Below, one piece after another: positions 17,954-33,452 of a DNA stretch of 45,226 bases (its first letter is position 1; each line of letters begins with the position of its first letter). The notes beneath the pieces were generated by a model. That model was not told where the DNA came from and made no database searches. It saw only the letters and a list, made by a program, of their open reading frames with translations. Source of the DNA: Erysipelotrichaceae bacterium (GTDB taxonomy: Bacteria; Bacillota_I; Bacilli_A; Erysipelotrichales; Erysipelotrichaceae); contig WSYG01000008.1 of assembly GCA_009773735.1 (NCBI GenBank), positions 1 to 45,226 of the forward strand. The letters are read 5' to 3'. Made by a program: the position numbers and the translations under genes.

Positions 17954-19530
<1,577 letters not shown>

Positions 19531-19531
<1 letters not shown>

Positions 19532-19557
19532 ACAAAACACCAAACGGTGTTTTGTTT
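19531..19557. terminator. bidirectional terminator between glpK and the flavoprotein gene
   Basis: A perfect 11-bp stem, AACAAAACACC/GGTGTTTTGTT, has a four-base loop, and A- and T-runs let it serve both convergent genes. It begins in the glpK stop codon. Confidence 0.85.
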
Positions 19558-19577
19558 CTATGTATTAAAGAATTAAT

Positions 19578-21002
19578 CTATTGCCTATCACTTGTTTCAA
19601 GTACTTTTTTTCCTGCAATGCGTCCCATAACCAAACATTCAGTGACTGAACAACTCCCCAAGCGATTGGCACCATGTGTCAATCCGGTGACTTCACCAGC
19701 AGCATACAAACCTTGTATGATTTGGCCATGGTCATCTAACACATGAGTATCACCATCGATCACCAATCCACCAAGAGAATAATGTGTTTTTGGGTTGATT
19801 CTCATGGAGTAAAAAGGAGCAGTCTCAAGAGGACTCATCCAACTTTCAATTGTTTTCTCATAAGTAATGTCATGCTTATCTAGAACCATTTGATTATAAT
19901 CATTGATGGTGTTTTGTAGGTTATCTAGTGGAATCTCATAGTGCTTTGAAAGATGATCCAATGATGGGTGAGATTTAATTACACCTTTTTTTAATGCTAT
20001 GTTAAGATCCCAGGCTGCTTTTTCAACTGCTTGAGCATCTGCGATTCCAATGACATTAATTGTTTCCAGGATTTTGTTGGTCACAATTTTTCGGTTATCA
20101 AGTTCATTCACAAATCTCTTTCCGGTTTTTGTGTCGATCAGAATGCCATAGGAAGATACGATATAATCTCCAAATAAGCCACCATTCCCATACCCAGTTT
20201 CATCATTGGTAGACCATGGCATCCACTGGATTTGATCTAAATTTATGGTTGCGGCAGAAATATCCATACAAGCTTCAAGCACTTCAGCACTGGTTGTTTT
20301 CTTATTGGTGGTTTGAGAAGTGGTGGTGTGATTAGGATTATGTTTATTTATGAAGTTTGCATCTGCCGCAAAACCGCCTGTTGCGACAATGATACCTTGC
20401 GACGCCATCAACTGCTGTGTAATCTTATTATGTTTAGAATCAAGACTATAATTTGTATCGACCATAATCCCAATAACATGATCCTTATCATTTTTTATAA
20501 ATGATTCAACACTGATTCCTGTATAGATTTTTATACCTAGAGCTTCACATTTTTCTTTCATTTTCAAAATCATTGTTGATCCTGAAAGGGGATGTGGCGT
20601 ATAACAACGTGGTACAGAATGACCACCAAAGATATCTACCCGAGGTAAATAATTCACGTTAAGCTCTTCTTTTGACCACATATAAGCTTCTAGTGCATGA
20701 TCACAAACTATTCTAGTTATCGAAGGATCATTGAGACCCTCAGCTGATATCATTATGTCTTCAAACATCTTATCTGCAGAATCAATTATTCCAGAAAGAT
20801 GTTGTTCTGGTGTATCTGGTGCTGCAATACCACCATCACTGATGATTGAATTTCCACCAATGGCTTTCATCTTCTCTAGGACAATGACATTTCCACCATT
20901 TATTTTGCATTCAATGGCAGCTGCTAAACCAGCAAACCCTGAGCCTATGACGATAACATCATTTTTGGTAGGAATAATTGTTTCTGTAAGTTCATGTTTC
21001 AT
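19578..21002 (-). CDS. FAD-dependent fumarate-reductase-like flavoprotein
   Basis: This 474-residue protein is in the FAD-binding-2 family (soluble fumarate reductase, flavocytochrome c flavin domain, urocanate reductase). It has the FAD motif GSGFAGLAAA at about 21-30, a glycine-rich ATGGFAAD strand, and the C-terminal substrate and FAD region THYSLGG plus GANRLGSCS. These hold the His and Arg that bind the carboxylates in this family. The second His expected in fumarate reductases (IQ-x-HPT region) appears replaced in IQWMPW, so the acceptor may be another enoate. There is no secretion signal, haem site or FMN domain, so it is probably cytosolic. AAGG precedes the ATG. It faces away from the fumarase genes. 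Confidence 0.85.
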   Translation of the reverse strand: MKHELTETIIPTKNDVIVIGSGFAGLAAAIECKINGGNVIVLEKMKAIGGNSIISDGGIAAPDTPEQHLSGIIDSADKMFEDIMISAEGLNDPSITRIVCDHALEAYMWSKEELNVNYLPRVDIFGGHSVPRCYTPHPLSGSTMILKMKEKCEALGIKIYTGISVESFIKNDKDHVIGIMVDTNYSLDSKHNKITQQLMASQGIIVATGGFAADANFINKHNPNHTTTSQTTNKKTTSAEVLEACMDISAATINLDQIQWMPWSTNDETGYGNGGLFGDYIVSSYGILIDTKTGKRFVNELDNRKIVTNKILETINVIGIADAQAVEKAAWDLNIALKKGVIKSHPSLDHLSKHYEIPLDNLQNTINDYNQMVLDKHDITYEKTIESWMSPLETAPFYSMRINPKTHYSLGGLVIDGDTHVLDDHGQIIQGLYAAGEVTGLTHGANRLGSCSVTECLVMGRIAGKKVLETSDRQ

Positions 21003-21103
21003 AGTGAAGCCTTCTAATTTCTTAACTCAATTCTAACATGCCTGGAAGCAGCTTTTTAGGATAGAGATGAATAATCATAAAGATGATTGTGTTAATGCAG
21101 TAA

Positions 21104-21307
21104 AAGAGAATAGATTTAAAAGAACGAGCACTCTTAGAGTACTCGTGTTGTAAGATCCAAGGTGTTCGATTAAGTCTAACCATATTAACGGGTTTGATTT
21201 TAGATGTTCATCAAACGGTTGGTTTAGCTGTACTTCTTGGGTCATTGTCAAAGAATAAACCTTCCAAGTTAGGATACGCTATAAAAAGATGTGATGACAG
21301 AGTATAA
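21104..21307 (+). pseudogene. 67-codon open frame without a start, possible gene remnant
   Basis: The 356-base gap between the flavoprotein and fumarase genes has one open frame with no usable start. It codes for a hydrophobic stretch (LTILTGLILD, TVGLAVLLGSL) and a basic tail ending at TAA. It reads like the last part of a membrane protein that lost its 5' end. An imperfect ACGAG/CTCGT hairpin lies in it at 21124-21146. The rest of the gap has a TATAAT at 21303-21308 that can serve the fumarase operon. Confidence 0.25.
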
Positions 21308-21358
21308 TTAAATAAGATGCCTTACACTTCACAAAGTCTAGATTTAAAGGAGAACTCT

Positions 21359-22204
21359 ATGAGAACCATACATGTCAATTTAATCACTGAAACTGTTAAA
21401 GAACTTTGTTTAAAAGCGAATTTTGACATTGGAGATTCCATGTTGAAAGTGTTGGAAGAACGTTTGGGAGATGAAAGTTCACCACTAGGAAAAACTGTTC
21501 TAAAACAAATGATCAATAATGATAAGCTTGCGAAACTTGAAGGTATTGCGATTTGTCAAGATACAGGGATGACTGTCGTCTTTATTGAAGTCGGACAGGA
21601 AGTATCGCTGGTTGGTGGTGATTTCAATGATGCCATTCATCAAGGTGTTCGATTGGCATATAAGGATGGCTTCTTACGTAAATCGGTAGTAGACGATCCG
21701 CTTTTTGATCGAATCAACACCAAAGACAATACCCCAGCCGTCATTCATACCACCATCACAAAAGGGGATCAGATTAAAATTGAAGTGATGCCTAAAGGAT
21801 TTGGCAGTGAAAATATGAGTACGCTTAAAATGTTTCCACCATCTGCTGGATTGAGCGGTGTCAAGAAATTTATTTTGGATACGGTTGAGAAAGCAGGTCC
21901 TAATGCATGTCCACCGATCATTGTTGGGGTTGGTATTGGTGGTACTTTTGAACAAGCCGCTTTGATTTCTAAGAGAGCTCTACTTCGTGGTGTTGGTCAA
22001 AGTAATCCACATCCTAAATATGCTCAACTTGAAATAGAACTGATCCAAGATATCAATCGCTTAGGAATAGGTCCAGCAGGCTTAGGAGGCTCTACAACCG
22101 CTATTTCTGTCAATATTGAACATTATCCAACCCATATCGCATCGATTCCAGTCGCCATCAACATCTGTTGTCATGTCTCTAGACATGCATCAGCGATTAT
22201 TTGA
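21359..22204 (+). CDS. class I fumarase/mesaconase, alpha subunit
   Basis: This 281-residue alpha subunit of a two-subunit Fe-S hydro-lyase (fumarase, also the tartrate dehydratase type) carries the cluster cysteines in IAICQDTGM, in GPNACPPIIVGVGIGGTFE, and in the C-terminal CCHVSRH. The enzyme hydrates fumarate to malate. Class I fumarases are also known to hydrate mesaconate to citramalate, which is relevant because a mesaconate-forming operon lies 3 kb downstream. The start is the ATG with AAAGGAG six bases upstream; an upstream in-frame ATG has no binding site. The beta subunit follows nine bases after the stop. Confidence 0.92.
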   Translation: MRTIHVNLITETVKELCLKANFDIGDSMLKVLEERLGDESSPLGKTVLKQMINNDKLAKLEGIAICQDTGMTVVFIEVGQEVSLVGGDFNDAIHQGVRLAYKDGFLRKSVVDDPLFDRINTKDNTPAVIHTTITKGDQIKIEVMPKGFGSENMSTLKMFPPSAGLSGVKKFILDTVEKAGPNACPPIIVGVGIGGTFEQAALISKRALLRGVGQSNPHPKYAQLEIELIQDINRLGIGPAGLGGSTTAISVNIEHYPTHIASIPVAINICCHVSRHASAII

Positions 22205-22213
22205 GGTAAGTAA

Positions 22214-22771
22214 ATGATGAAAGAAAAACATATTCGATTACCGCTTAATGAAGAAACGATCTTGTCTTTAAAAGCAGGCGACACAGTGTTTTTAAGTGGA
22301 ACCATGATTACAGGAAGAGATGCGGCTCATAATCGTTTGTTTGATTGTTTGAGTCGTGGAGAAACGTGTCCAATAGAACTTAAAGGCGAGGTTATTTATT
22401 ATGTTGGACCAGCTCCAGCAAAACCTGGTCATGCGGTAGGATCAGCTGGTCCTACTTCGAGTTATCGTATGGATGCGTATGCACCAGTATTATTGGATTA
22501 TGGATTAAAAGGCATGATTGGAAAAGGAGATCGAAGCCCTGAAGTCATTGATGCCATCATTCGAAACAAAGCCATCTATTTTGTTGCGATTGGAGGTTTA
22601 GGGGCAACGATTTCTAAGAGTATCTTGAAATCGGAAACTTTATGTTATGAAGATCTTGGAACTGAAGCCATTCAACGCTTTTGGGTAAAGGATTTTCCAG
22701 CCATAGTCGTTATTGATGCTTTTGGGAACAATCTTTATCATCAAGAACAAGCCAAATATAAATCAATCTAG
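22214..22771 (+). CDS. class I fumarase/mesaconase, beta subunit
   Basis: This is the 185-residue beta subunit, matching the C-terminal domain of single-chain class I fumarases. It has the swivelling-domain motifs GTMITGRDAAHNR at about 30-42, the YYVGPAPAKPGHAVGSAGPT substrate region at about 68-87, MIGKGDRS, and VAIGGLGA. The length fits Bacillota beta subunits. GAGGTAAGTA precedes tandem ATG codons. The pair is followed 19 bases later by malic enzyme, giving fumarate to malate to pyruvate in one unit. Tartrate dehydratase is a possible alternative substrate class and sequence motifs alone do not exclude it. Confidence 0.92.
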   Translation: MMKEKHIRLPLNEETILSLKAGDTVFLSGTMITGRDAAHNRLFDCLSRGETCPIELKGEVIYYVGPAPAKPGHAVGSAGPTSSYRMDAYAPVLLDYGLKGMIGKGDRSPEVIDAIIRNKAIYFVAIGGLGATISKSILKSETLCYEDLGTEAIQRFWVKDFPAIVVIDAFGNNLYHQEQAKYKSI

Positions 22772-22790
22772 TATATAAACAGGAGGAACA

Positions 22791-23969
22791 ATGTCTAACA
22801 TCTATGAAAAATCATTGCTTGCACATGCCCAGTGGAAAGGCAAGCTCAGTATCAAATTGAAGTGTGACATCACCAATAAAGATGAATTGAGTTTAGCGTA
22901 TACGCCTGGGGTCGCAGAACCATGTCGCGCCATTGCTCGAAATCCAGAGGATGTGTATAAATATACATCAAAAGGCAACATGGTCGCTGTAATCACCGAT
23001 GGGACAGCAGTATTGGGTTTAGGTGATATTGGTCCAAAAGCTTCGTTACCCGTCATGGAAGGGAAATGTGCCCTGTTTAAAGCCTTTGCAGATATTGATG
23101 CCATACCGATTGCCCTAGATACAAAAGATCCTAAAGAAATCATAGCCATCTGTAAAGCTTTGGCACCTGCTTTTGGAGGTTTTAACCTCGAAGATATATC
23201 AGCCCCAAGATGTGTTGAGATTGAACGAGCACTTAAGCAAGAGCTGGATATCCCTGTCTTTCATGATGATCAACATGGAACTGCAATTGTGGTTGCAGCT
23301 GGTCTCATCAATGCGTTAAAGTTGGTCCACAAAGAATTCAAAGATATTAAAGTGGTCGTTAGCGGAGCTGGTGCAGCTGGTAGTTCAGTTATGTTTATGC
23401 TTCAGAATTTAGGCGTAAAAAACATTTATGGTTTCTCAAAAGAAGGTGTTGTTCGTCGCAGTAATCTTTCAGCTGATTTTTTAACCAAGGAATTGGCAGA
23501 ATTTACCAATCCTCGCGATGAAAATGTGACTTTAGCTCAAGCATTAGTAAACGCGGATGTATTCATTGGGGTATCCGCTCCTCGTTTGGTAACTTCAGAC
23601 ATGATCAAAACCATGGGTAAGGATCCTATTGTATTTGCATTGGCTAATCCTGAACCAGAAATTACAGTTGATGAAGCAAAGGCTGGTGGTGCTTATATCA
23701 TTGGAACTGGTCGATCAGACATGCCCAATCAAGTCAACAATGTCTTAGTATTCCCTGGATTGTTCAGAGGCGCACTGGATGCGAAAGCCACTCAAATCAC
23801 AGAACCGATGAAACTGGCTGCTGCTTATGCACTGGCATCTTTGATCAGTGAAGAAGAGCTTCGCGTTGATTATATAATTCCTTCTGTTTTTGATCCACGC
23901 GTATCTAAAACAATTGCCCTAGAAGTCCTGAAAGTCGCACAAGAAACAGGGATGGTTAGGGTCGCTTAA
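22791..23969 (+). CDS. malic enzyme, NAD(P)-dependent
   Basis: This enzyme oxidatively decarboxylates malate to pyruvate and CO2. The 392-residue short bacterial form has the SLAYTPGVAEPC motif with the catalytic Tyr, ITDGTAVLGLGDIGP, the metal-binding NLEDISAP, HDDQHGTAIV, and a Rossmann fold with VSGAGAAGSS. There is no C-terminal phosphotransacetylase-like domain. AGGAGGAACA gives a strong ribosome binding site. It completes a three-gene unit with the two fumarase subunits. No obvious terminator follows directly; the next transcription signal is a promoter about 25 bases after the stop. Confidence 0.94.
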   Translation: MSNIYEKSLLAHAQWKGKLSIKLKCDITNKDELSLAYTPGVAEPCRAIARNPEDVYKYTSKGNMVAVITDGTAVLGLGDIGPKASLPVMEGKCALFKAFADIDAIPIALDTKDPKEIIAICKALAPAFGGFNLEDISAPRCVEIERALKQELDIPVFHDDQHGTAIVVAAGLINALKLVHKEFKDIKVVVSGAGAAGSSVMFMLQNLGVKNIYGFSKEGVVRRSNLSADFLTKELAEFTNPRDENVTLAQALVNADVFIGVSAPRLVTSDMIKTMGKDPIVFALANPEPEITVDEAKAGGAYIIGTGRSDMPNQVNNVLVFPGLFRGALDAKATQITEPMKLAAAYALASLISEEELRVDYIIPSVFDPRVSKTIALEVLKVAQETGMVRVA

Positions 23970-23991
23970 GCGTGATTCTAAACTTATGAAA

Positions 23992-24020
23992 TTGTTTCTT
24001 ATGAATAGAAGTGATACACT
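23992..24020 (+). promoter_or_regulatory. promoter of the methylaspartate operon
   Basis: TTGTTT, a 17-base spacer and TACACT with an upstream TG predict a start near 24027. A leader of about 118 bases follows. Confidence 0.55.
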
Positions 24021-24088
24021 TAAATTGACCAAGGAGACCATTATAACCATAATGCGTACTTACTTAAAGCAACATTCTTATCCAGTAA

Positions 24089-24113
24089 AACAAGAAGAAC
24101 ATTCTTGTTTTTT
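24089..24113 (+). terminator. leader terminator before the methylaspartate operon
   Basis: An 8-bp perfect stem, AACAAGAA/TTCTTGTT, has a five-base loop and is followed by TTTTTCG. It lies inside the leader, before the first ribosome binding site of the operon. Transcription of the whole operon would therefore have to pass it, which suggests attenuation. A 23-codon frame starts at 24053 and runs through it, with AAGGAG rather far upstream. Confidence 0.55.
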
Positions 24114-24144
24114 CGTTATCTAAACCACATAAGGAGACTAATCC

Positions 24145-25065
24145 ATGAGCCCAAGTATTGAACAATTGAGATATGCGACCTTCTATGCCCCTAGAGGTAG
24201 TCAACGTATGCAGAATCTGGGAAATCAAATTTCTCAGGTGTATTTATTGCCTTCGGATAAGTTGATTGGGATCATCGGCGATGCGGGAAGCGGTAAATCG
24301 CTTTTGATCAAAGGTATGTTTCCCGGTCTTGAATTGACCAATGATGATGATGGGATCAACACTCGTCCTGCGCCTTTGATGCGTGACTATACAAAACATA
24401 AGTTTATTTCTCATACCTATCATATCGATTTAAGATTTGAGCTTGCTTTTTCGCAAGCTTTCGAATTGATCGATGCCATAAAAGCAGCTCTACATGAAAA
24501 AAGACGGGTTATCGTTGAACACTTTGACTCTGTGTATGAACAATTGGGTATTAACGCAGATATCTTGATTGGGATCGGCGAAGAAGTTATTGTTGCTCGA
24601 CCTAATTTATTTGGACCTGAACCAGGAGACATCAAAAAAACAGTGTATAAATCCTTGCTTTTAAGACGCATGGCGCATAGTGCAGAAGATCTTTTAGTCC
24701 ACATATTAGAAAATGATTATCAAGTGGTTTGTGATGGTCATGGAGATGTCAAACACGGATTTATATTGTCTTTCAATAAAAAACCGAGGGTATCATTAGC
24801 TGTCCTTGAAAAAAAAGTTAAAGCGCTCATTCAGCAAGATTTGATCATCAGTTATTTGGATCCAACCCACATCAAGATTGGAAAAGAAATCATTCAATAC
24901 TGTACAGGTCCTAGAACTCATGTGAATTCCACCAAACAAATCGAAAACTTTCGTCTGTTGGAAGATTATGTCTTTGATCCACAGAAACAGTGTTATGAAC
25001 TGGTAGGAATGGTTTCATCTGATGCGATTCAAGATATACATAAAATCAATCACTTTGGTGATTAA
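24145..25065 (+). CDS. P-loop NTPase fused to an alanyl-tRNA-synthetase second-additional-domain-like region
   Basis: This 306-residue protein is the first gene of the glutamate mutase operon. Residues 1-150 hold a Walker A loop GDAGSGKS at 45-52 and helical segments with VEHFDSVYEQ. Residues 165-300 resemble the alanyl-tRNA synthetase editing (SAD) fold: AHSAEDLLVH with His178 and His186, and CTGPRTHVN with Cys253 and His259, where the synthetase has its CxxxH zinc pair. The canonical second His of HxxxH is Asp182. I recall such proteins near glutamate mutase genes in clostridia but know of no demonstrated role. A cofactor-loading or chaperone role is inference only. AAGGAG precedes the ATG. 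Confidence 0.75.
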   Translation: MSPSIEQLRYATFYAPRGSQRMQNLGNQISQVYLLPSDKLIGIIGDAGSGKSLLIKGMFPGLELTNDDDGINTRPAPLMRDYTKHKFISHTYHIDLRFELAFSQAFELIDAIKAALHEKRRVIVEHFDSVYEQLGINADILIGIGEEVIVARPNLFGPEPGDIKKTVYKSLLLRRMAHSAEDLLVHILENDYQVVCDGHGDVKHGFILSFNKKPRVSLAVLEKKVKALIQQDLIISYLDPTHIKIGKEIIQYCTGPRTHVNSTKQIENFRLLEDYVFDPQKQCYELVGMVSSDAIQDIHKINHFGD

Positions 25066-25074
25066 GGAGTAATT

Positions 25075-25491
25075 ATGGAAAAAAGTACTGTTGTGATCGG
25101 TGTCATTGGAGCCGATGTCCATGCTGTAGGCAATCGTATCATTGAATTTGCCCTTGATCATGCAGGATTCAATGTGGTCAACTTAGGAGTCATGGTTTCA
25201 CAAAAAGAATTTGTTGATGCTGCGATCGAAACCAATGCCAAAGCCATTTTTGTATCAAGTTTATATGGACAAGGTGAGCTGGATTGTCGTGGTTTTGGTG
25301 ATTATTGTAAAGAAGCAGGATTAAATAATGTCTTGTTATATGTTGGAGGAAATCTGGTCATCGGTAAGTCTGATTTTGAACCGGTTAAAGAAAAGTATAT
25401 CACTATGGGTTTTGATCGCGTTTATCCGCCAGGCAGCGACATCAATCAAGGCATAGAAGATTTAAAACACGATTTGGAGATCATGGATTAA
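25075..25491 (+). CDS. glmS: glutamate mutase sigma (S) subunit, B12-binding
   Basis: This is the small, cobalamin-binding component of glutamate mutase (methylaspartate mutase), which rearranges L-glutamate to L-threo-3-methylaspartate with adenosylcobalamin. The 138-residue protein has the cobalamin motif DVHAVG (Asp14, His16, Gly19), which supplies the lower-axial His. The conserved VSSLYGQGE and [10 protein letters not shown] strands follow, as in clostridial MutS/GlmS. The length matches the family (about 137). AAGGAG gives a good start. The gene is followed directly, without any gap, by glmL. The symbol here is the mutase component, not glucosamine-6-phosphate synthase. Confidence 0.96.
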
Positions 25492-26847
25492 ATGCCGACG
25501 TATCTTCTTTTCGATGTGGGTTCTACATACACAAAAGGTTGTATCGTAGATACTCAAAAGGACGAAATCTTGGCCATCGCCAATGACTTAACGACAGCCT
25601 CGATTGATATCGCCATCGGAATTGAAAATGTTAAACGTAAAATGGCACCTGTTTTAAGTAAGATTTCTATCGATCAAACGCTTGTTTGTAGTTCAGCCAA
25701 AGGCGGTTTAAAAATGATCGCAGTTGGTTTGGTTCCTGATTTGACCTTAAAGGCTGCGACTTTAGCATGTTATAGCGCAGGAGCCAAAGTTATAGGTTCA
25801 TATTCCTTTGAACTCAATCAAAGTGAACTCAAAGAGATAGAAAATGCTCAGTGTGATATTTTGCTGTTGAGTGGTGGAACAGATGGTGGAAATTATGAAG
25901 TTGTGATTCATAATGCTAAGATGATCGCATCTTTGGCACCGAAATTCCCAGTGATTTATGCAGGTAATAAATCTTGTCAAGATGAAATCGTTTCACTATT
26001 TCGAAAAGCCAACGTTGATTGTGTGTGTTGTGAAAATGTTATGCCGACGTATGGGATCCTTCAAGTCGATCAATGTCGTGAATTGATTAGAGAACTGTTT
26101 CTAAGAACCATTGTTAAGGCAAAAGGTTTATCTGAATTAAGTTCAATCATCGATGATATTGTTTTACCAACCCCCATGAGTGTTATGGAAGCTCTAAAAC
26201 TACTTTCTAAAGGCACATCTACTGAAATAGGAATAGGGGATTTGATGGCCATTGATATTGGTGGCGCAACGACTGATGTCTACAGTATGAATGCTCATTT
26301 CGTACTTAAGGACAATATCGGATACAAAGGTTTAAGAGAACCACTGGATAAACGTAGTGTTGAAGGTGATTTAGGCGTACGATTCAGTGCGCATAATGTT
26401 GCTGATCTAAAAAAAGATGAACCTGAATATGATCATGGAATGAGAGACTATCTTCAACAGATCCAAGACAATATTCATTGTGATATTGATCCAGATAAAG
26501 ATTCCGTTCTCGCAGCTTGGTGTACAAATATTGCCACTCAAAGACATGCTGGTAGGCTTGAAACCTCTTATTCACCGATGGGAGTCGGTTACTATCAATC
26601 AGGTAAGGATCTTCGAGATGTATCCGTTATGGTTGGGATTGGTGGACCACTTCTGCATTCAAAAGATCCATTATCGATTTTAGAGATGACTTTGTCTGAT
26701 CCAAATCATCCTGAGATCTTATTACCAGATAAATTGGAATATTATCTTGATTCTAACTATGTGGTCAGTTGTTTAGGTTTGTTGGCTTCACGCCATCCAG
26801 ATACTGTGGTTCGCTTACTAAAAAGAAACATGGAGAAAATCATATGA
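25492..26847 (+). CDS. glmL: glutamate mutase accessory protein GlmL (MutL)
   Basis: This 451-residue member of the ASKHA ATPase superfamily lies between the two mutase subunits, as in Clostridium. It shows the phosphate-1 motif LLFDVGSTYTKG at the N-terminus, LLLSGGTDGGN near 125-135, and a second phosphate loop MAIDIGGATTDVYS at about 252-265. GlmL is thought to reactivate or protect the mutase by exchanging damaged cobalamin, by analogy with other B12-enzyme reactivases. The start codon abuts the glmS stop and the stop overlaps the glmE start (ATGA), so translation is tightly coupled. Confidence 0.94.
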   Translation: MPTYLLFDVGSTYTKGCIVDTQKDEILAIANDLTTASIDIAIGIENVKRKMAPVLSKISIDQTLVCSSAKGGLKMIAVGLVPDLTLKAATLACYSAGAKVIGSYSFELNQSELKEIENAQCDILLLSGGTDGGNYEVVIHNAKMIASLAPKFPVIYAGNKSCQDEIVSLFRKANVDCVCCENVMPTYGILQVDQCRELIRELFLRTIVKAKGLSELSSIIDDIVLPTPMSVMEALKLLSKGTSTEIGIGDLMAIDIGGATTDVYSMNAHFVLKDNIGYKGLREPLDKRSVEGDLGVRFSAHNVADLKKDEPEYDHGMRDYLQQIQDNIHCDIDPDKDSVLAAWCTNIATQRHAGRLETSYSPMGVGYYQSGKDLRDVSVMVGIGGPLLHSKDPLSILEMTLSDPNHPEILLPDKLEYYLDSNYVVSCLGLLASRHPDTVVRLLKRNMEKII

Positions 26848-28289
26848 TCAATCAAAAGATGCCCTTAGTTGAATTCTTGGCCTTACGTCAGGAAGTTCTA
26901 AATCAATGGATCACTGGCAAAGAAGTAAATCTTGAAGAAGCTGTGGCGTATCAAAAAACCATCAAAGCAGATAAAAGATTCAGTGCTAAATTAAAGCAAG
27001 CAGCTTTAGATAAGGTTACTTTAGTTCAGCCTAGAGCTGGGGTCGCTTTACCTAATGATCTTAAGAAACTGCTTAAAACACTTCAAGATGAAGGTGGAGC
27101 TGATCTTTTACCGACAACCATAGACAGTTATACACGTCATAATCGCTACATAGAAGCTCAAACAGGAATCGATGAAAGCATACGGATTGGTAAATCTTTA
27201 TTGAATGGTTTTCCTGCTGTCAATCATGGGGTAAGTGTTTGTCGCGATGTCGTGGAATATTTGGATGTACCTGTTCAAGTACGTCATGGAACACCAGATG
27301 CTCGATTATTGGCTGAAATTACTTTGGCTGGTGGTTTTACATCATTTGAAGGTGGAGGGATTTCCTATAATATCCCTTACGGTAAAAACAATTCCCTTGA
27401 AAAAACGATTACGGATTGGCAATATGTCGATCGTTTGGTTGGATATTACGAAGAACGTGGAATCACAATCAATCGTGAACCTTTTGGTCCTTTGACTGGA
27501 ACTTTGGTTCCTCCTTGTATTTCGCATTCAGTGGCAATCTTAGAATCTTTATTGGCGGCTCAACAAGGCTGTAAATGCATTACTGTTGGATATGGACAAT
27601 GTGGTAATCAGATTCAAGACATTGCTGCTATTAAGACTTTAGAAAAATTATCTAAGATGTATTTAAATCGTTTTGGATATAAAGATGTGCGCATCACAAC
27701 GGTCTTTCATCAATGGATGGGTGGTTTTCCGCAAGACGAAGCTAAAGCATACGCAGTCATCGCTTGGGGTGCTGCAACAGCCGTTCTATCAGGTGCCACA
27801 AAAGTCATCGTTAAATCTCCTCATGAAGCTTTTGGAGTACCCACTGCCGAAGCCAATTCAAACGGATTGAAGGCTACCAAACAATTGACGGCGATGCTCA
27901 AAGATCAAGTCGCAATTGAGAGTCCTATGATCGTTGAAGAAATGAACATCATTGAAGCTGAGACTAATTGTATTATAGAAGCGGTCTTGAAGCTTGGAAA
28001 CAATGACTTTGGATTAAGCGCATTGCGTGGTTTTGAAGCAGGTTTGATCGATGTCCCATTTGCGCCAGCACAGTGTAATGCCAACAAAGCATTACCGGCA
28101 AGAGACAATAATGGGGCAGTAAGATTCTTAGATTTCGGAAATTTACCTTTTGATGAAACACTTAAAGCCTTTCATCGCCAGAAGTTAAAAGAACGGGCTG
28201 AAACAGAGCGTCGTGATGTCAGTTTCCAAATGGTCATCGACGATATATATGCAGTCAGTAAAGGACAATTGGTCGGACGACCAAGATAG
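26844..28289 (+). CDS. glmE: glutamate mutase epsilon (E) subunit
   Basis: This is the catalytic TIM-barrel component of methylaspartate mutase, which binds glutamate and pairs with GlmS around adenosylcobalamin. At 481 residues it has the length of clostridial MutE. Visible family segments are LPTTIDSYTRHNRY, HGTPDARLLAEI with the substrate-binding Arg, EGGGISYNIPYGK, and TVGYGQCGNQIQD. The start is the ATG that overlaps the glmL stop, with GGAGAAAAT upstream; a longer frame would add 25 residues inside glmL. It is followed within eight bases by mal. Confidence 0.96.
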   Translation: MINQKMPLVEFLALRQEVLNQWITGKEVNLEEAVAYQKTIKADKRFSAKLKQAALDKVTLVQPRAGVALPNDLKKLLKTLQDEGGADLLPTTIDSYTRHNRYIEAQTGIDESIRIGKSLLNGFPAVNHGVSVCRDVVEYLDVPVQVRHGTPDARLLAEITLAGGFTSFEGGGISYNIPYGKNNSLEKTITDWQYVDRLVGYYEERGITINREPFGPLTGTLVPPCISHSVAILESLLAAQQGCKCITVGYGQCGNQIQDIAAIKTLEKLSKMYLNRFGYKDVRITTVFHQWMGGFPQDEAKAYAVIAWGAATAVLSGATKVIVKSPHEAFGVPTAEANSNGLKATKQLTAMLKDQVAIESPMIVEEMNIIEAETNCIIEAVLKLGNNDFGLSALRGFEAGLIDVPFAPAQCNANKALPARDNNGAVRFLDFGNLPFDETLKAFHRQKLKERAETERRDVSFQMVIDDIYAVSKGQLVGRPR

Positions 28290-28296
28290 GGAAACC

Positions 28297-29562
28297 ATGA
28301 AAATCATTGATGTAGTCACAAGCCAAGGCAGAACAGGTTTCTTCTTTGACGATCAAAAAGCGATCAAACAAGGCGCGAAATCAGAAGGTAGCTTTTATGT
28401 AGGCGATCCACTCACTCCAGGGTTTACTCGGATTCGTCAGGCTGGAGAATCTTTAACGATCATGTTGGTTCTTGAAGATGGACAAGTCGCTTTTGGAGAT
28501 TGTTGTGCAGTTCAATACAGCGGATGTGGAGGAAGAGATCCACTCTTCTTAGCTCAAGAATTTGAACTGATCATTCATCAAGAACTTAAACCATTATTAA
28601 TGGGTAGGGAACTTGATTCTTTTAAGACTTTAGCTCATGAGTTTGATAACTTTCATCACGAAGGTAAACGGATTCATACAGCACTTCGATATGGAATCAC
28701 TCAAGCTTTATTAGATGGTGTCGCAAAAGCCCATCATACCCAAATGGCCAACATCGTTGCTTTAGAATATGGAACTCAAGTGAGTGACCAATTGATTCCA
28801 ATCTTTAGTCAAAGCGGAGACAATCGCTATGACAATGTCGATAAAATGATCATCAAAGGATCACCTGTCATGCCTCATGCGCTCATCAACAATGTTGCTG
28901 CTAAGTTAGGTTATCAAGGTGAAAAACTATTGGAATATGTCAAATGGCTACGTCAACGGGTCGATACGTTTAAGAGTAATGATGATTATATGCCTGTCTT
29001 TCATATCGATGTCTATGGAACTTTTGGGATCATCTTTAAAACAGATTATGAAGCCATGGCCGATTATATGAAATCATTGCGTGAAGCCAGTGGTCCATAT
29101 CATTTACGCATTGAAGGACCGGTTGATTTCGATGATCGCGAATTGACCATGCTGGGACTAAAAGCCATTACTGAAGTGCTAGATCGACGTCATATCGATG
29201 TTGAGATCGTTGCGGATGAATGGTGCAATACACTAGAAGACATCATCTATTTTGCCGATAACAAAGCTGGTCATATGGTACAAATCAAAACTCCAGATTT
29301 AGGTGGGATCCAAAATACGATTGAAGCCGTACTTTATTGTAATAAAAAAGGCATTGGTGCTTATCAAGGCGGTACTTGTAATGAAACAGATATTAGTGCT
29401 AAGACCTGTGTCCATGTCGCAATGGCGACTCATCCTGTTCAGATCTTGGCTAAACCGGGGATGGGCGTCGATGAAGGATATATGATCGTATACAATGAAA
29501 TGCAAAGGATAATCGCATTGAATAAAGCGATGAAAGGCAGGACAAATCATGAAATGCGTTAA
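28297..29562 (+). CDS. mal: methylaspartate ammonia-lyase
   Basis: MAL removes ammonia from 3-methylaspartate to give mesaconate, using an enolase-superfamily fold and Mg2+. The 421-residue protein carries the family residues at the classical numbering: His194 in VMPHALIN, metal ligands Asp238 (FHIDVYG), Glu273 (RIEGPVD) and Asp307 (VADEWCN), Gln329 and the catalytic Lys331 (VQIKTPDLGG). AGGGAAACC precedes the chosen ATG; a longer frame would begin inside glmE. The last 14 bases overlap the AtuA-like gene, so the two are coupled. Confidence 0.97.
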   Translation: MKIIDVVTSQGRTGFFFDDQKAIKQGAKSEGSFYVGDPLTPGFTRIRQAGESLTIMLVLEDGQVAFGDCCAVQYSGCGGRDPLFLAQEFELIIHQELKPLLMGRELDSFKTLAHEFDNFHHEGKRIHTALRYGITQALLDGVAKAHHTQMANIVALEYGTQVSDQLIPIFSQSGDNRYDNVDKMIIKGSPVMPHALINNVAAKLGYQGEKLLEYVKWLRQRVDTFKSNDDYMPVFHIDVYGTFGIIFKTDYEAMADYMKSLREASGPYHLRIEGPVDFDDRELTMLGLKAITEVLDRRHIDVEIVADEWCNTLEDIIYFADNKAGHMVQIKTPDLGGIQNTIEAVLYCNKKGIGAYQGGTCNETDISAKTCVHVAMATHPVQILAKPGMGVDEGYMIVYNEMQRIIALNKAMKGRTNHEMR

Positions 29563-30901
29563 AGTTCTTTCTACGACAGCGATCCTTGGTTATGGTTTCC
29601 CAATGTCTAGTTTTGAAGAAGGCATGAAATTAAAACCAGATTGTATCGCTGTGGATGCTGGTTCTACCGATCCAGGACCTTATTACTTAGGTGCAGGCGT
29701 CTCATTCACCGATTATTTCGCTGTCAAACGTGACTTGGCCATCATGATCGAAGCTGGGATTGAACATAATATCCCTGTTTTGGTAGGTAGTGCCGGAGGA
29801 AGTGGCGCCAAACCTCATCTGGATTGGCAACTTCAAATCGTTTACGAAATCGCTAAAGAACATAATCTGCACTTTAAAATGGCTGTCATCGAAGCAGATT
29901 TCGATAAAGAATTTGTCTTAAAAGCATTTGAAGAAGGTAAGGTTAAACCTCTTCATCCAGCCCCAGAATGTACGCGTGAGGACATTCTGGAATCGACCCG
30001 CATCGTTGGTCAAATGGGGGTAGAACCTTTCATCAAAGCCCTTAATGATGGCGCTCAGGTCATCATCGCAGGTCGTTCTTATGATCCTAATATGTTTGCA
30101 GCGCTTCCAATCATTCGTGGTTTTGATCAAGGTTTAGCACTACATATGGGAAAAATCTTAGAATGTGCTGCGATCGCATCAACCCCAGGCAGTGGCAGTG
30201 ATTGTATGTTTGGAACCATCTACGAAGATCGCTTTGTCTTAGAAACCTTAAATCCGGCTCGTAAATGCACGACCTTAAGTGTCAGTGCCCATACTTTATA
30301 CGAAAAAACAAATCCATATATCTTACCTGGACCTGGTGGAACCATCGATCTTCATCAAACAACTTTTACGCAACTCAATGAAAATCAAGTTGAAGTCAGA
30401 GGCAGTAAGTTCATCTTATCCAATCCCTATACCATCAAACTAGAGGCTGCCAAATGTGTTGGATTTAGAACTGTCAGTATCGCGGGAGTACGCGATCCAA
30501 TCTTCATTAGAGAAATCGATTCAATTTTAGAAGGGGTCACCAAAAGAGTTAAAGATAACTTTAAGAATCTGGATAATTATCACCTTAACTTCAAGATCTA
30601 TGGTAAAAACGGAGTCATGGGTGATCTAGAACCTGTTAAAGAAATCACATCTCATGAATTGTGTATCGTCATCGATGCGGTTGCGAAAACACAAGATGTC
30701 GCAAACACCATCTGTAGTTTTGCCCGCAGTACGATGCTTCATTATGGCTATGATGGACGTATCGCAACGGCTGGTAATCTTGCCTTTCCATATTCCCCAA
30801 GTGATTTTAAAGTAGGTGCTGTGTATAACTTCAGTTTGTATCATTTGATTGAAATCACCGATCCGGTTGGCATATTCAAACAGACCATGGTCAATGTGTA
30901 A
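29549..30901 (+). CDS. AtuA-like (DUF1446) protein of the methylaspartate operon
   Basis: This 450-residue cytosolic protein is in the acyclic terpene utilisation AtuA/DUF1446 family. It shows the N-terminal KVLSTTAILGYGFP, DAGSTDPGPYYLG, LVGSAGGSGAKPH, and the later IIAGRSYDPNMFAALP and STPGSGSDCMFG segments. The reaction of the family is not known to me; conserved Asp, His and Cys residues suggest an enzyme acting on a small acid or its CoA ester. It overlaps the end of mal and precedes a DUF4387 gene, the usual partner of AtuA. In this operon it may handle mesaconate or citramalate, but this is inference. Confidence 0.88.
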   Translation: MKCVKVLSTTAILGYGFPMSSFEEGMKLKPDCIAVDAGSTDPGPYYLGAGVSFTDYFAVKRDLAIMIEAGIEHNIPVLVGSAGGSGAKPHLDWQLQIVYEIAKEHNLHFKMAVIEADFDKEFVLKAFEEGKVKPLHPAPECTREDILESTRIVGQMGVEPFIKALNDGAQVIIAGRSYDPNMFAALPIIRGFDQGLALHMGKILECAAIASTPGSGSDCMFGTIYEDRFVLETLNPARKCTTLSVSAHTLYEKTNPYILPGPGGTIDLHQTTFTQLNENQVEVRGSKFILSNPYTIKLEAAKCVGFRTVSIAGVRDPIFIREIDSILEGVTKRVKDNFKNLDNYHLNFKIYGKNGVMGDLEPVKEITSHELCIVIDAVAKTQDVANTICSFARSTMLHYGYDGRIATAGNLAFPYSPSDFKVGAVYNFSLYHLIEITDPVGIFKQTMVNV

Positions 30902-30911
30902 GGAGCCACTT

Positions 30912-31229
30912 ATGAAACATAAACTGATCGATATCGCAAAAGTCATTCGTTCTAAGAATTCAGGACCTTATGAGATTACGTTTGACATTATCCTAAAAGA
31001 CAAAGAAACATTTAACGCCTTGGTTGAACATAAATGCATCAATGCTGAACTCATCGCTTCTTTGTATAAAATCAAAGTAGAAGATGTCATCACCATCGTT
31101 GAGTTTGTTCCTGCTAATGCCATCAAAGCCACCATCATCAGACCGATGTGCAGTGGAGATATCCGTGAAACCGATGTCTACGGTGCTCAACAACACGCCC
31201 CATTACTTGATCTTGAATTTGACTACTAG
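30912..31229 (+). CDS. DUF4387 protein, partner of AtuA
   Basis: This 105-residue small cytosolic protein matches my memory of DUF4387. It begins with LIDIAKVIRSKNSGPYEITFD and has the middle IKVEDVITIVEFVPANAIK. The end is RPMCSGDIRETDVYGAQQHAP. It is compact and alpha/beta, with no cysteine cluster or signal. It is encoded next to AtuA/DUF1446 genes elsewhere and probably forms a complex with that protein. The start is the ATG with AAGGAG seven bases upstream; a longer frame would run back into the AtuA-like gene. It is the last gene of the operon, closed by a terminator. Confidence 0.85.
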   Translation: MKHKLIDIAKVIRSKNSGPYEITFDIILKDKETFNALVEHKCINAELIASLYKIKVEDVITIVEFVPANAIKATIIRPMCSGDIRETDVYGAQQHAPLLDLEFDY

Positions 31230-31237
31230 ACTTAAAA

Positions 31238-31263
31238 GCACTTCAGAAGAAGTGCCTTTTTAT
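31238..31263 (+). terminator. terminator of the methylaspartate operon
   Basis: GCACTTC/GAAGTGC stem with a four-base loop, flanked by AAAA on the left and CTTTTTAT on the right. It begins nine bases after the DUF4387 stop. The converging nuclease gene ends just beyond it. Confidence 0.88.
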
Positions 31264-31266
31264 GGG

Positions 31267-31788
31267 TTAATTGTTTTTCCAAATGCCTATTTTTTCTTTT
31301 TTGATCAGATCTTGAAGTTGATAGAGTTGACTGGAATAAAGATTGGGCTGCTTAACATATTTGACTTCCGCATAACCTTGTTCAATCAATTTGGCTTGAA
31401 GCAGTTTACCATCGACCCAGATCCAGGCCAATAAGCGATCATATTGATCACGATCATCCTCATAAGGATCCATTTGGAGGATGATTGTTTTTGCTTTGGT
31501 CAATAAGTTACAGGTATAATCACTGGCTTGATTGCCATAAGGCTCAGGATTTGGATGATCATCATTGGCAATTTCAGGCGCATCGATCGACAAGAATCGT
31601 ACTTTTTCATCATTCCCAGCCAATAAGAAATGAGCTGTATCACCATCTGTACATTTTAAAAGAAGGGCTTTACTTTGATCAGAAGCAGAAGTGATCTTGA
31701 TGGAATCTGCATCGAAACTAGGTTTATTGCTGACTTTACATGCACTTAAGCTCATGATCAATACGATAATCAACCATTGTTTTCTCAT
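31267..31788 (-). CDS. thermonuclease-like (SNase) lipoprotein
   Basis: This is a 173-residue lipoprotein with signal LSAC (Cys17) and a staphylococcal-nuclease domain, so it probably degrades DNA or RNA at the outer face of the membrane. The core shows CTDGDTAHF, the active-site Arg and Glu in VRFLSIDAPE, and the second active-site Arg in QYDRLLAWIW. YAEVKYV and a C-terminal helix complete the fold. The start is the ATG with AAAGGAA; an in-frame ATG seven codons earlier lacks a site. It might scavenge nucleotides. It is convergent with the methylaspartate operon. Confidence 0.88.
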   Translation of the reverse strand: MRKQWLIIVLIMSLSACKVSNKPSFDADSIKITSASDQSKALLLKCTDGDTAHFLLAGNDEKVRFLSIDAPEIANDDHPNPEPYGNQASDYTCNLLTKAKTIILQMDPYEDDRDQYDRLLAWIWVDGKLLQAKLIEQGYAEVKYVKQPNLYSSQLYQLQDLIKKEKIGIWKNN

Positions 31789-31869
31789 GTTTTTTCCTTT
31801 CAAGTTCAAATCTTGTTTTCATTGTATCATCTTGAATAAGCGGTCGTCTAAATAATAAGGTTTGGTTTC

Positions 31870-31898
31870 TTGTATTATGAAACTTGCTGACCTATAAT
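31870..31898 (+). promoter_or_regulatory. promoter of the HerA/DUF853 gene
   Basis: TTGTAT, a 17-base spacer and a perfect TATAAT predict a start near 31905, about 20 bases before the GTG start codon. Confidence 0.75.
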
Positions 31899-31925
31899 AT
31901 GAGAAATGAGATATGGAGGAAGTTC

Positions 31926-33452
31926 GTGGATCAATCAACACAATTTTTAGTCGGAAGAGGTGAGAAGGATATCCTGTTTAACTTAAAGATGGCCAATCGT
32001 CATGGTTTGATTGCTGGTGCTACCGGCACTGGTAAAACAATTACCTTAAAAGTATTGGCTGAACATTTCAGTACTCAAGGCGTTCCTGTTTTCTTATCAG
32101 ATGTCAAAGGTGATCTTGCTTCTTTGGCTCAACCAGGCATCATGAATCCTAAACTTCAAGAAAGGATCGATAAATTAGGGCTTGCCCCATTTGAATTTGG
32201 TAGTTATCCAGTTCGTTTATGGGACGTTTTTGGGGAGTTGGGACATCCTTTACGCACCAGCATCTCTGAGATTGGACCTTTGCTCTTAAGTCGTATATTG
32301 GGCTTAAATGAGGTTCAGGCAGGGGTTTTGACCATAATATTTAGAATTGCTGATGATATGGGTTTACTTTTGATCGATTTGAAAGATATTCGTAGTTTGG
32401 TTCAATATGTTGGAGATAATGCCAATAACTTTACCACTGAATATGGGAATCTTGCTAAACCCTCTGTGGGATCGATTCAACGTGCTTTATTGACTCTAGA
32501 AGATCAAGGTGGAGATCAGTTCTTTGCTGAACCTGCGTTTGATATCAATGACTTGATGAAAGTCGATCCTTATGGAAAAGGCATCATCAATGTCTTGGCT
32601 TCTGAAAAGTTAATGATGGCTCCTGCTTTGTATTCAACCTTCTTATTGTGGTTGCTTTCTGAACTGTTTGAAGAATTACCTGAAGTCGGAGATCTTGATA
32701 AACCGAAGATGGTATTTTTCTTTGATGAAGCACACTTGCTGTTTACAGATGCCCCAAAAGCATTACTGGATAAAATTGAACTCGTAGTTAGATTGATCAG
32801 ATCTAAAGGCGTTGGTGTTTACTTTGTAACGCAAAATCCAATCGATATCCCAGATAAAGTATTGAATCAATTGGGCAATCGTGTACAACATGCCTTGCGC
32901 TCATTTACTCCGCGCGAAAACAAAGCCATCAATGCAATGGCAGAAACATTCAGACAAAACCCAAGCATCGATATCCCTAGTGTCATCACTGAACTTAAAA
33001 CAGGGGAAGCTTTGGTTTCCATGTTGGATCTAGAAGGAAGACCTGGCATCGTTGAAAGAGCTATGATTTGTCCTCCACATAGCATCATCGGAACCATTAC
33101 TCCTGAAAAACGTCAAGAACTGATCACAAATTCACCGTTCTATTACAAATACAATCAAATCATCGATAAAGAATCTGCCTATGAAATGTTGAAAGCTAAA
33201 ATGAATGTTCAGCAAGAACAAAAGAACTTGGTCGAAGAAGCTAAACTTCAAGAACAGCAAGTTAAAGAACAAAATAAAGAAGCTGTACGTTTACGTAAAG
33301 AACAAGAAAGACTTGATAAAGAAAAAGCCAGAGCTGCTAAGAAAAATGTCACTGTTGTCGAGAAAATGACGAAGTCTTTTATGGGTACGATGAGTTCATC
33401 GATTGGACGTGAAATTGCCCGCGGAATCTTTGGATCATTGTTAAGAAGATAA
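31926..33452 (+). CDS. HerA-FtsK-type ATPase, DUF853 (YjgR-like)
   Basis: This 508-residue ATPase belongs to the helicase HerA/DUF853 family. Walker A GATGTGKTITL is near residues 29-39, Walker B MVFFFDEAHLLF is near 260-271, and the sensor region GVYFVTQNP follows. A Lys/Glu/Gln-rich coiled coil at about 430-480 precedes a short C-terminal tail with a conserved-looking RGIFGSLLRR. It is a hexameric DNA or protein translocase by family; no substrate is known. I chose GTG because GGAGGAAG lies just upstream and the promoter fits; upstream codons lie in the promoter. It is monocistronic with its own terminator. Confidence 0.9.
   Translation: MDQSTQFLVGRGEKDILFNLKMANRHGLIAGATGTGKTITLKVLAEHFSTQGVPVFLSDVKGDLASLAQPGIMNPKLQERIDKLGLAPFEFGSYPVRLWDVFGELGHPLRTSISEIGPLLLSRILGLNEVQAGVLTIIFRIADDMGLLLIDLKDIRSLVQYVGDNANNFTTEYGNLAKPSVGSIQRALLTLEDQGGDQFFAEPAFDINDLMKVDPYGKGIINVLASEKLMMAPALYSTFLLWLLSELFEELPEVGDLDKPKMVFFFDEAHLLFTDAPKALLDKIELVVRLIRSKGVGVYFVTQNPIDIPDKVLNQLGNRVQHALRSFTPRENKAINAMAETFRQNPSIDIPSVITELKTGEALVSMLDLEGRPGIVERAMICPPHSIIGTITPEKRQELITNSPFYYKYNQIIDKESAYEMLKAKMNVQQEQKNLVEEAKLQEQQVKEQNKEAVRLRKEQERLDKEKARAAKKNVTVVEKMTKSFMGTMSSSIGREIARGIFGSLLRR

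Follow-up and report, generated by a model that had tools for sequence, protein, structure and literature searches.

Domains of the SAD type are known from tRNA proofreading. To our knowledge, those characterised to date, in AlaRS, ThrRS and AlaX, are aminoacyl-tRNA deacylases. Proteins that serve B12-dependent mutases have been described separately: the P-loop protein MMAA serves the B12 mutase methylmalonyl-CoA mutase (PMC10356863), and MutL/GlmL has been described as a reactivation chaperone (PMC4682846). Here we describe a 306-residue protein, named SADP (for P-loop/SAD protein) in this work, which is encoded in a 45,226-nucleotide stretch of Erysipelotrichaceae DNA (hereafter the window; Table 1). 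SADP is a well-conserved, previously undescribed protein made of two parts. Its domain combination is unnamed in the libraries and literature searched, a description of it was not found in the literature search, and both of its distant homologues carry the annotation "hypothetical". The genome of the window encodes its own AlaRS, ThrRS and TsaE, and SADP is therefore not a replacement for any of them.

SADP within methylaspartate-pathway clusters

The operon has the order SADP-glmS-glmL-glmE-mal-AtuA-DUF4387, with 9 bp between the SADP stop codon and the start of glmS. An earlier note, made from the window sequence, had proposed SADP as the first gene of a glutamate mutase operon. This placement is plausible, since SADP is parted from the malic-enzyme gene by a hairpin with a trailing T run, possibly a weak terminator or attenuator; the promoter scan lends it nothing, the site at 24025-24053 upstream of SADP scoring no better than chance. 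An Rfam scan of 19000-32000 returned no families, and hence no cobalamin riboswitch.

Upstream of SADP, the malic-enzyme gene is found in every member of the window's genus. The two-subunit hydratase encoded further upstream is, by context, the mesaconase of the methylaspartate pathway; the fumarase pairs with which it was compared include neighbours of glm genes, and such two-subunit pairs occur in glutamate-fermentation clusters (PMC4682846).

Two further observations concern the surroundings of the operon. A flavocytochrome-c-type reductase gene (19578-21002, minus strand; TIGR01813, above cut-off) adjoins the glutamate operon, and a homologue is also close to the glm genes in the second SADP-containing genus, g34. 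Furthermore, the AtuA-DUF4387 pair comes after mal in glm clusters that have no nearby citramalate-lyase genes, namely those of the window's genus, Prevotella, E. coli and Salmonella (29549-31229 in the window; L153, L179, L181 and L182), and in Neorhizobium it lies beside a class I fumarase without a glutamate mutase. The pair could supply the step, so far missing, that handles citramalate or mesaconate; what becomes of citramalate in E. coli O157:H7 has been described as unclear (PMC4682846).

Table 1. Features of the SADP locus, in window coordinates
Feature	Position	Strand	Basis
Two-subunit class I fumarase-type hydratase	21317..22771	+	47-75% identity to fumarase pairs of other glm loci
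Malic enzyme	22791..23969	+	NF009501 match
Hairpin then T run, between malic-enzyme gene and SADP	24087..24113	+	fold -8.8 kcal/mol, z -3.58
Ribosome-binding-site-like AAGGAG	24131..24136	+	sequence; 8 bp 5' of SADP ATG
SADP	24145..25065	+	open reading frame; ATG at 24145, stop codon ends at 25065
Walker A GDAGSGKS, residues 45-52	24277..24300	+	invariant in 8/8 close members
TNDDD, residues 65-69, acidic, 3' of Walker A	24337..24351	+	invariant in alignments A1 and A5
HxDxR, residues 93-97	24421..24435	+	invariant; aligns with TsaE HxDxY(R) (hhalign)
EHF, residues 125-127	24517..24525	+	invariant
SAD-like domain, about residues 166-290	24640..25014	+	Pfam tRNA_SAD below cut-off in 8/8; hhalign; fold re-alignment
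First SAD motif AHSAEDLLVH, residues 177-186 (H178, D182)	24673..24702	+	alignments
Second SAD motif CTGPRTHV, residues 253-260 (C253, R257, H259)	24901..24924	+	alignments and hhalign
glmS, methylaspartate (glutamate) mutase subunit S, B12-binding	25075..25491	+	TIGR01501 above cut-off
glmL, mutase accessory protein	25492..26847	+	NF040745 above cut-off; PF13941
glmE, methylaspartate mutase subunit E	26844..28289	+	TIGR01503 above cut-off
mal, methylaspartate ammonia-lyase	28303..29562	+	TIGR01502 above cut-off
AtuA-family protein	29549..30901	+	PF07287, E 2.6e-21, passes Pfam cut-off
DUF4387 protein	30909..31229	+	PF14330, E 3.4e-39, passes Pfam cut-off

Orthologues with 63-84% identity are present in seven further Erysipelotrichaceae genomes, which gives, with the window, eight close members in two genera (g1 and g34); alignment-based searches across the order, phylum and class returned no SADP beyond these two genera. 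A translated search of a plasmid collection yielded two full-length homologues, WP_025436946.1 of Peptoclostridium acidaminophilum (51% identical) and WP_004367803.1 of Prevotella nigrescens (44% identical). No relatives were found in viral contigs (tblastn) or in phages, and there was no PHROG match. Purifying selection acts strongly on both halves of SADP (dN/dS 0.01-0.05 in non-saturated pairs).

Several weaker candidates were set aside. Among the weak matches in Erysipelotrichaceae outside the two genera, ABC transporters made up most of those that were translated, the others being a TsaE and AlaX-like proteins. A 314-residue hypothetical protein encoded 5' of glmS in an E. coli record has neither a Walker A nor a SAD motif and is not a relative, and a PADLOC mad8 match of SADP (E 0.0096) is a match to the Walker A.

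The association with glutamate mutase proposed in the earlier note is real, but the partner is the entire pathway cluster and not the mutase alone. SADP lies directly 5' of glmS in each of the eight Erysipelotrichaceae loci. In Prevotella the order is glmS-glmL-glmE-mal-AtuA-DUF4387-SADP-fumA-fumB, in which fumA-fumB is the mesaconase. In Peptoclostridium it is citC-SADP-citX, beside a glmS-glmL-glmE-mal block and citramalate-lyase genes; here, SADP has the same direction as citC and citX, not as glmS, and citX overlaps the SADP stop. The note had taken a conserved partner set unrelated to glutamate mutase as grounds for abandoning its proposal; instead, all 10 SADP homologues found are located in methylaspartate-pathway clusters, and this confirmed linkage reaches into a second phylum. 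The eight SADP genomes all fall within the 17 of 146 Erysipelotrichaceae genomes that have glmE (hypergeometric 6e-9), and both plasmid-collection records fall within the 30 of 72,556 that have a glmE-like gene (1.7e-7), values that are indicative, since related genomes are not independent.

Conversely, most methylaspartate-pathway clusters have no SADP. It is absent from the glmS-glmL-glmE operons of nine family genomes, from the glm operons of two other genera in the family, from roughly 25 more genomes in the rest of the class, and from E. coli, Salmonella and Gemmobacter records. SADP is an optional extra of the methylaspartate pathway, whose exact neighbours vary. A single clade of SADP-positive operons was ruled out. 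Those of the Erysipelotrichaceae form one clade, and their sister operons (g8/g36) do not contain the gene, so that gain and loss cannot be distinguished.

The two halves of SADP

The N-terminal half has the Walker A loop that the earlier note had claimed, as an exact GDAGSGKS. AGSGKS is present in all aligned members and G[DE]AGSGKS overall, in agreement with the P-loop pattern [AG]xxxxGK[ST]. The TNDDD stretch may occupy the position of the DxD of kinases, and EHF is likely the end of a Walker B-like strand. Elsewhere in this half, IKGMFPGLELTNDDD, HxDxR, EHF, GEE and RPxxFGP show strong conservation, and no P-loop family was clearly matched. Pfam TsaE matches residues 20-134 (E 4.7e-5) and is also matched in all eight close members, with the SADP scores missing both TsaE cut-offs (PF02367, 23.8 vs 26.6 bits; TIGR00150, 26.0 vs 60.1 bits) and the match fading with distance: of the two remote members, one gives E 0.14 and the other no match. 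With the Walker A included, hhalign gave 96% for TsaE and 97.7% for ABC transporters; without it (residues 54-160), TsaE fell to 0.3-2.4%, and thymidylate-kinase-like proteins were the best of the P-loop families tested, at only 10-27%. A TsaE identity for this half is thus unproven.

The assignment of the C-terminal half to the SAD domains is well supported by sequence comparison. Pfam tRNA_SAD (PF07973) matches the window SADP below its cut-off (16.6 bits vs a gathering threshold of 24), and such below-cut-off matches recur in all eight close members (best E 2.2e-4) and in Peptoclostridium. In hhalign with a 7-row alignment, in which P-loop and operon control families stayed below 2.5%, residues 165-247 reached 93% against AlaX-type proteins, and residues 235-306 reached 95% against the ThrRS SAD and 89% against the AlaRS SAD. 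The clearest stretch is CTGPRTHVNSTKQIENFRLL of SADP against CRGP--HVENTKVIKNFKLL of ThrRS, whose motif is the closest. The likeness to the SAD fold, which the earlier note had wished to see compared, thus appears by profile and also, weakly, by structure modelling. An AlphaFold model of the full-length protein from two sequences (pLDDT 32) was set aside; for the SAD half alone, a weak model from two sequences (pLDDT 53) re-aligned by VIA-align with the AlaRS editing domain 3wqy (Z 7.4) among the top entries and with the AlaX chains 3kew (Z 6.8) and 1v4p (Z 6.6), tied with rows of soluble guanylate cyclase. Foldseek gave no matches to this SAD-only model at E <= 0.001, an AlaX match having E 1.4. 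The editing fold of alanyl-tRNA synthetase that had been proposed therefore holds as SAD likeness, but the nearest motif is that of ThrRS and the second motif is C-x5-H.

The two motifs described in the earlier note, including the replacement of one expected histidine by aspartate (D182), were found as claimed. The metal site of SADP reads H178xxxD182 and C253-x5-H259, vs the canonical HxxxH and CxxxH (C-x3-H). All aligned members retain H178, C253, G255, P256 and R257, and in the Prevotella member D182 is replaced by Glu and H259 by Gln, by which two of the four metal-site residues are lost. The HxxxH/CxxxH tetrad that defines zinc-dependent aminoacyl-tRNA deacylases is absent, at least family-wide. 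This altered tetrad, together with the Prevotella substitutions, makes it doubtful that SADP is a canonical zinc-deacylase, although the changed site may be compatible with binding of an aminoacyl-type ligand.

Possible roles of SADP

The statement that our data support best is that SADP is a dedicated ATP-binding accessory of the methylaspartate pathway whose SAD domain has an amino-acid-like ligand. From the observed domain make-up, conservation and pathway linkage we infer the turnover of ATP, the ligand and the partner as follows. The N-terminal P-loop domain would bind and perhaps turn over ATP, and the SAD domain, with its changed metal site (HxxxD...C-x5-H), most likely still holds an amino-acid-like ligand, candidates being glutamate, 3-methylaspartate and acyl or aminoacyl adducts of these. 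In the mechanism we favour, the P-loop domain would bind or turn over ATP in step with ligand binding by the SAD domain, and this cycle may support or reactivate the glutamate mutase system (GlmS/GlmE with GlmL).

Service to the glutamate mutase system is, tentatively, the single most likely role. We rank it first because of the position of SADP in Erysipelotrichaceae and by analogy with the P-loop chaperones of other B12 mutases. It is favoured by the invariant Walker A and motifs of the P-loop half, the SAD likeness from independent stretches and from the fold, the adjacency to glmS in 8/8 Erysipelotrichaceae loci, the co-occurrence with glmE and the purifying selection on both halves. Against it stand the position of the Peptoclostridium gene, which sides with citC/citX, that of the Prevotella gene, 3' of DUF4387, and the many glmS-glmL-glmE operons that have no SADP. 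The chemistry proposed in the earlier note should be viewed with caution, because one member has lost metal-site residues and the position of the gene varies.

After mutase service, the order of likelihood places a kinase-type enzyme and then trans-editing of methylaspartyl-tRNA. It is conceivable, if somewhat unlikely, that SADP is a small-molecule kinase- or ligase-like enzyme, with the SAD half holding a metabolite or cofactor for phosphorylation by the P-loop half. Following the Walker A, the invariant TNDDDxxNxR is reminiscent of the DxD region in P-loop kinases, thymidylate-kinase-like proteins come out on top, weakly (10-27%), once the Walker A is left out, and SADP can be likened to TGS-SAD-uridine-kinase-like fusions, SAD-like and kinase fusions being present in the class (L163, L162). 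However, the scores are far below those of a kinase-family assignment, the domain order is opposite to that of the TGS-SAD-kinase proteins, with no SAD-SAD match in hhalign, and no phosphorylated intermediate is known in the methylaspartate pathway. A trans-editing factor, which would deacylate tRNA mischarged with a pathway amino acid, e.g. 3-methylaspartate on tRNA-Asp or tRNA-Asn, and so protect translation, appears unlikely. The deacylase activity of the characterised SAD domains (AlaRS, ThrRS, AlaX), the ThrRS-like nearest motif and the pathway link in separate lineages with varying neighbours, which suits a clean-up role, speak in its favour, and the invariant R257, adjacent to the metal motif, could hold the carboxylate of a side chain. 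On the other hand, the tetrad is incomplete, with D182 for His in most members and Glu and Gln in Prevotella, a recognisable tRNA-binding domain was not found in SADP, editing domains are not known to require a P-loop, and methylaspartate mischarging was not found in the literature searched. The idea is further weakened by the combination of the Prevotella metal-site loss with the many methylaspartate-pathway clusters that have no SADP. The version in which the P-loop assists SADP in clearing tRNAs that carry 3-methylaspartate, which the neighbouring mutase produces, seems more improbable still.

A switch of the TsaE type, in which SADP would act on GlmL as TsaE acts on TsaD, GlmL being, like TsaD, a putative member of the actin-like ATPase group, is a rather remote proposal. 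TsaE reactivates TsaD2B2 through ATP hydrolysis (PMC11648230), the Pfam TsaE match (E 4.7e-5) extends to 8/8 close members and HxDxR is common to both, but the match is gone in the distant members, hhalign retains only 0.3-2.4% when the Walker A is removed, and ABC transporters score equally high when it is present. Least probable of all is that SADP works with CitC and CitX in the biogenesis or control of citramalate lyase, e.g. by deacylating or regulating the lyase. The citC-SADP-citX arrangement of Peptoclostridium, with citX overlapping the SADP stop, and the finding of citC in both g34 genomes would agree with it. Yet the window genome (99% complete) and G073 (96%) have SADP without CitC, and family genomes with citramalate-lyase genes beside glmS do not have SADP; a general function as citramalate-lyase factor is therefore rejected.

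SADP represents a family in which a SAD domain is joined to an ATP-binding domain and which is seen only beside the B12-dependent glutamate pathway. This may mean that a proofreading fold has been recruited to metabolism or mutase upkeep or, alternatively, that a catabolic operon keeps its own product from corrupting the genetic code. If trans-editing were true, the non-protein amino acid made by a catabolic operon would be countered by a translational proofreading function encoded in that same operon. With a single gene, a single operon and a known substrate set, SADP is a cheap and well-defined target.

Comparison with known systems

Like the N2 editing domain of ThrRS (PF07973), SADP has CxGP...HVxxTxxIxNFxLL and a helix with HS-A-[HE], and its second SAD half aligns at 95%. 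It differs from that domain in having Asp for the second His and two residues inserted in CxxxH, and in being fused to a P-loop domain without a TGS domain or a synthetase core. The AlaX-type/DHHA1 editing proteins resemble SADP in the first SAD half (93%), and 3kew, 1v4p and 3wqy are among the best fold re-alignments; in AlaX, unlike in SADP, the HxxxH/CxxxH site is complete and the domain in front is a beta-barrel rather than a P-loop domain. TsaE (YjeE) shares with SADP a P-loop and the HxDxR/HxDxY region, and the close members match it weakly in Pfam and NCBIfam; in contrast, SADP scores below both curated cut-offs, its match is non-specific without the Walker A, and the genome has its own TsaE.

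The TGS-SAD-uridine-kinase-like fusion (L163 in G289, 547 aa) also combines a P-loop domain with a ThrRS-related part; it differs from SADP in the opposite domain order and its size of about 550 aa, and only the Walker A aligned in hhalign. In L163 and L162, a ThrRS-related N-terminal part is followed by a uridine-kinase-like C-terminal part, and the editing motifs are apparently lost. These two proteins would be a further case in which a kinase has recruited a ThrRS-like module.
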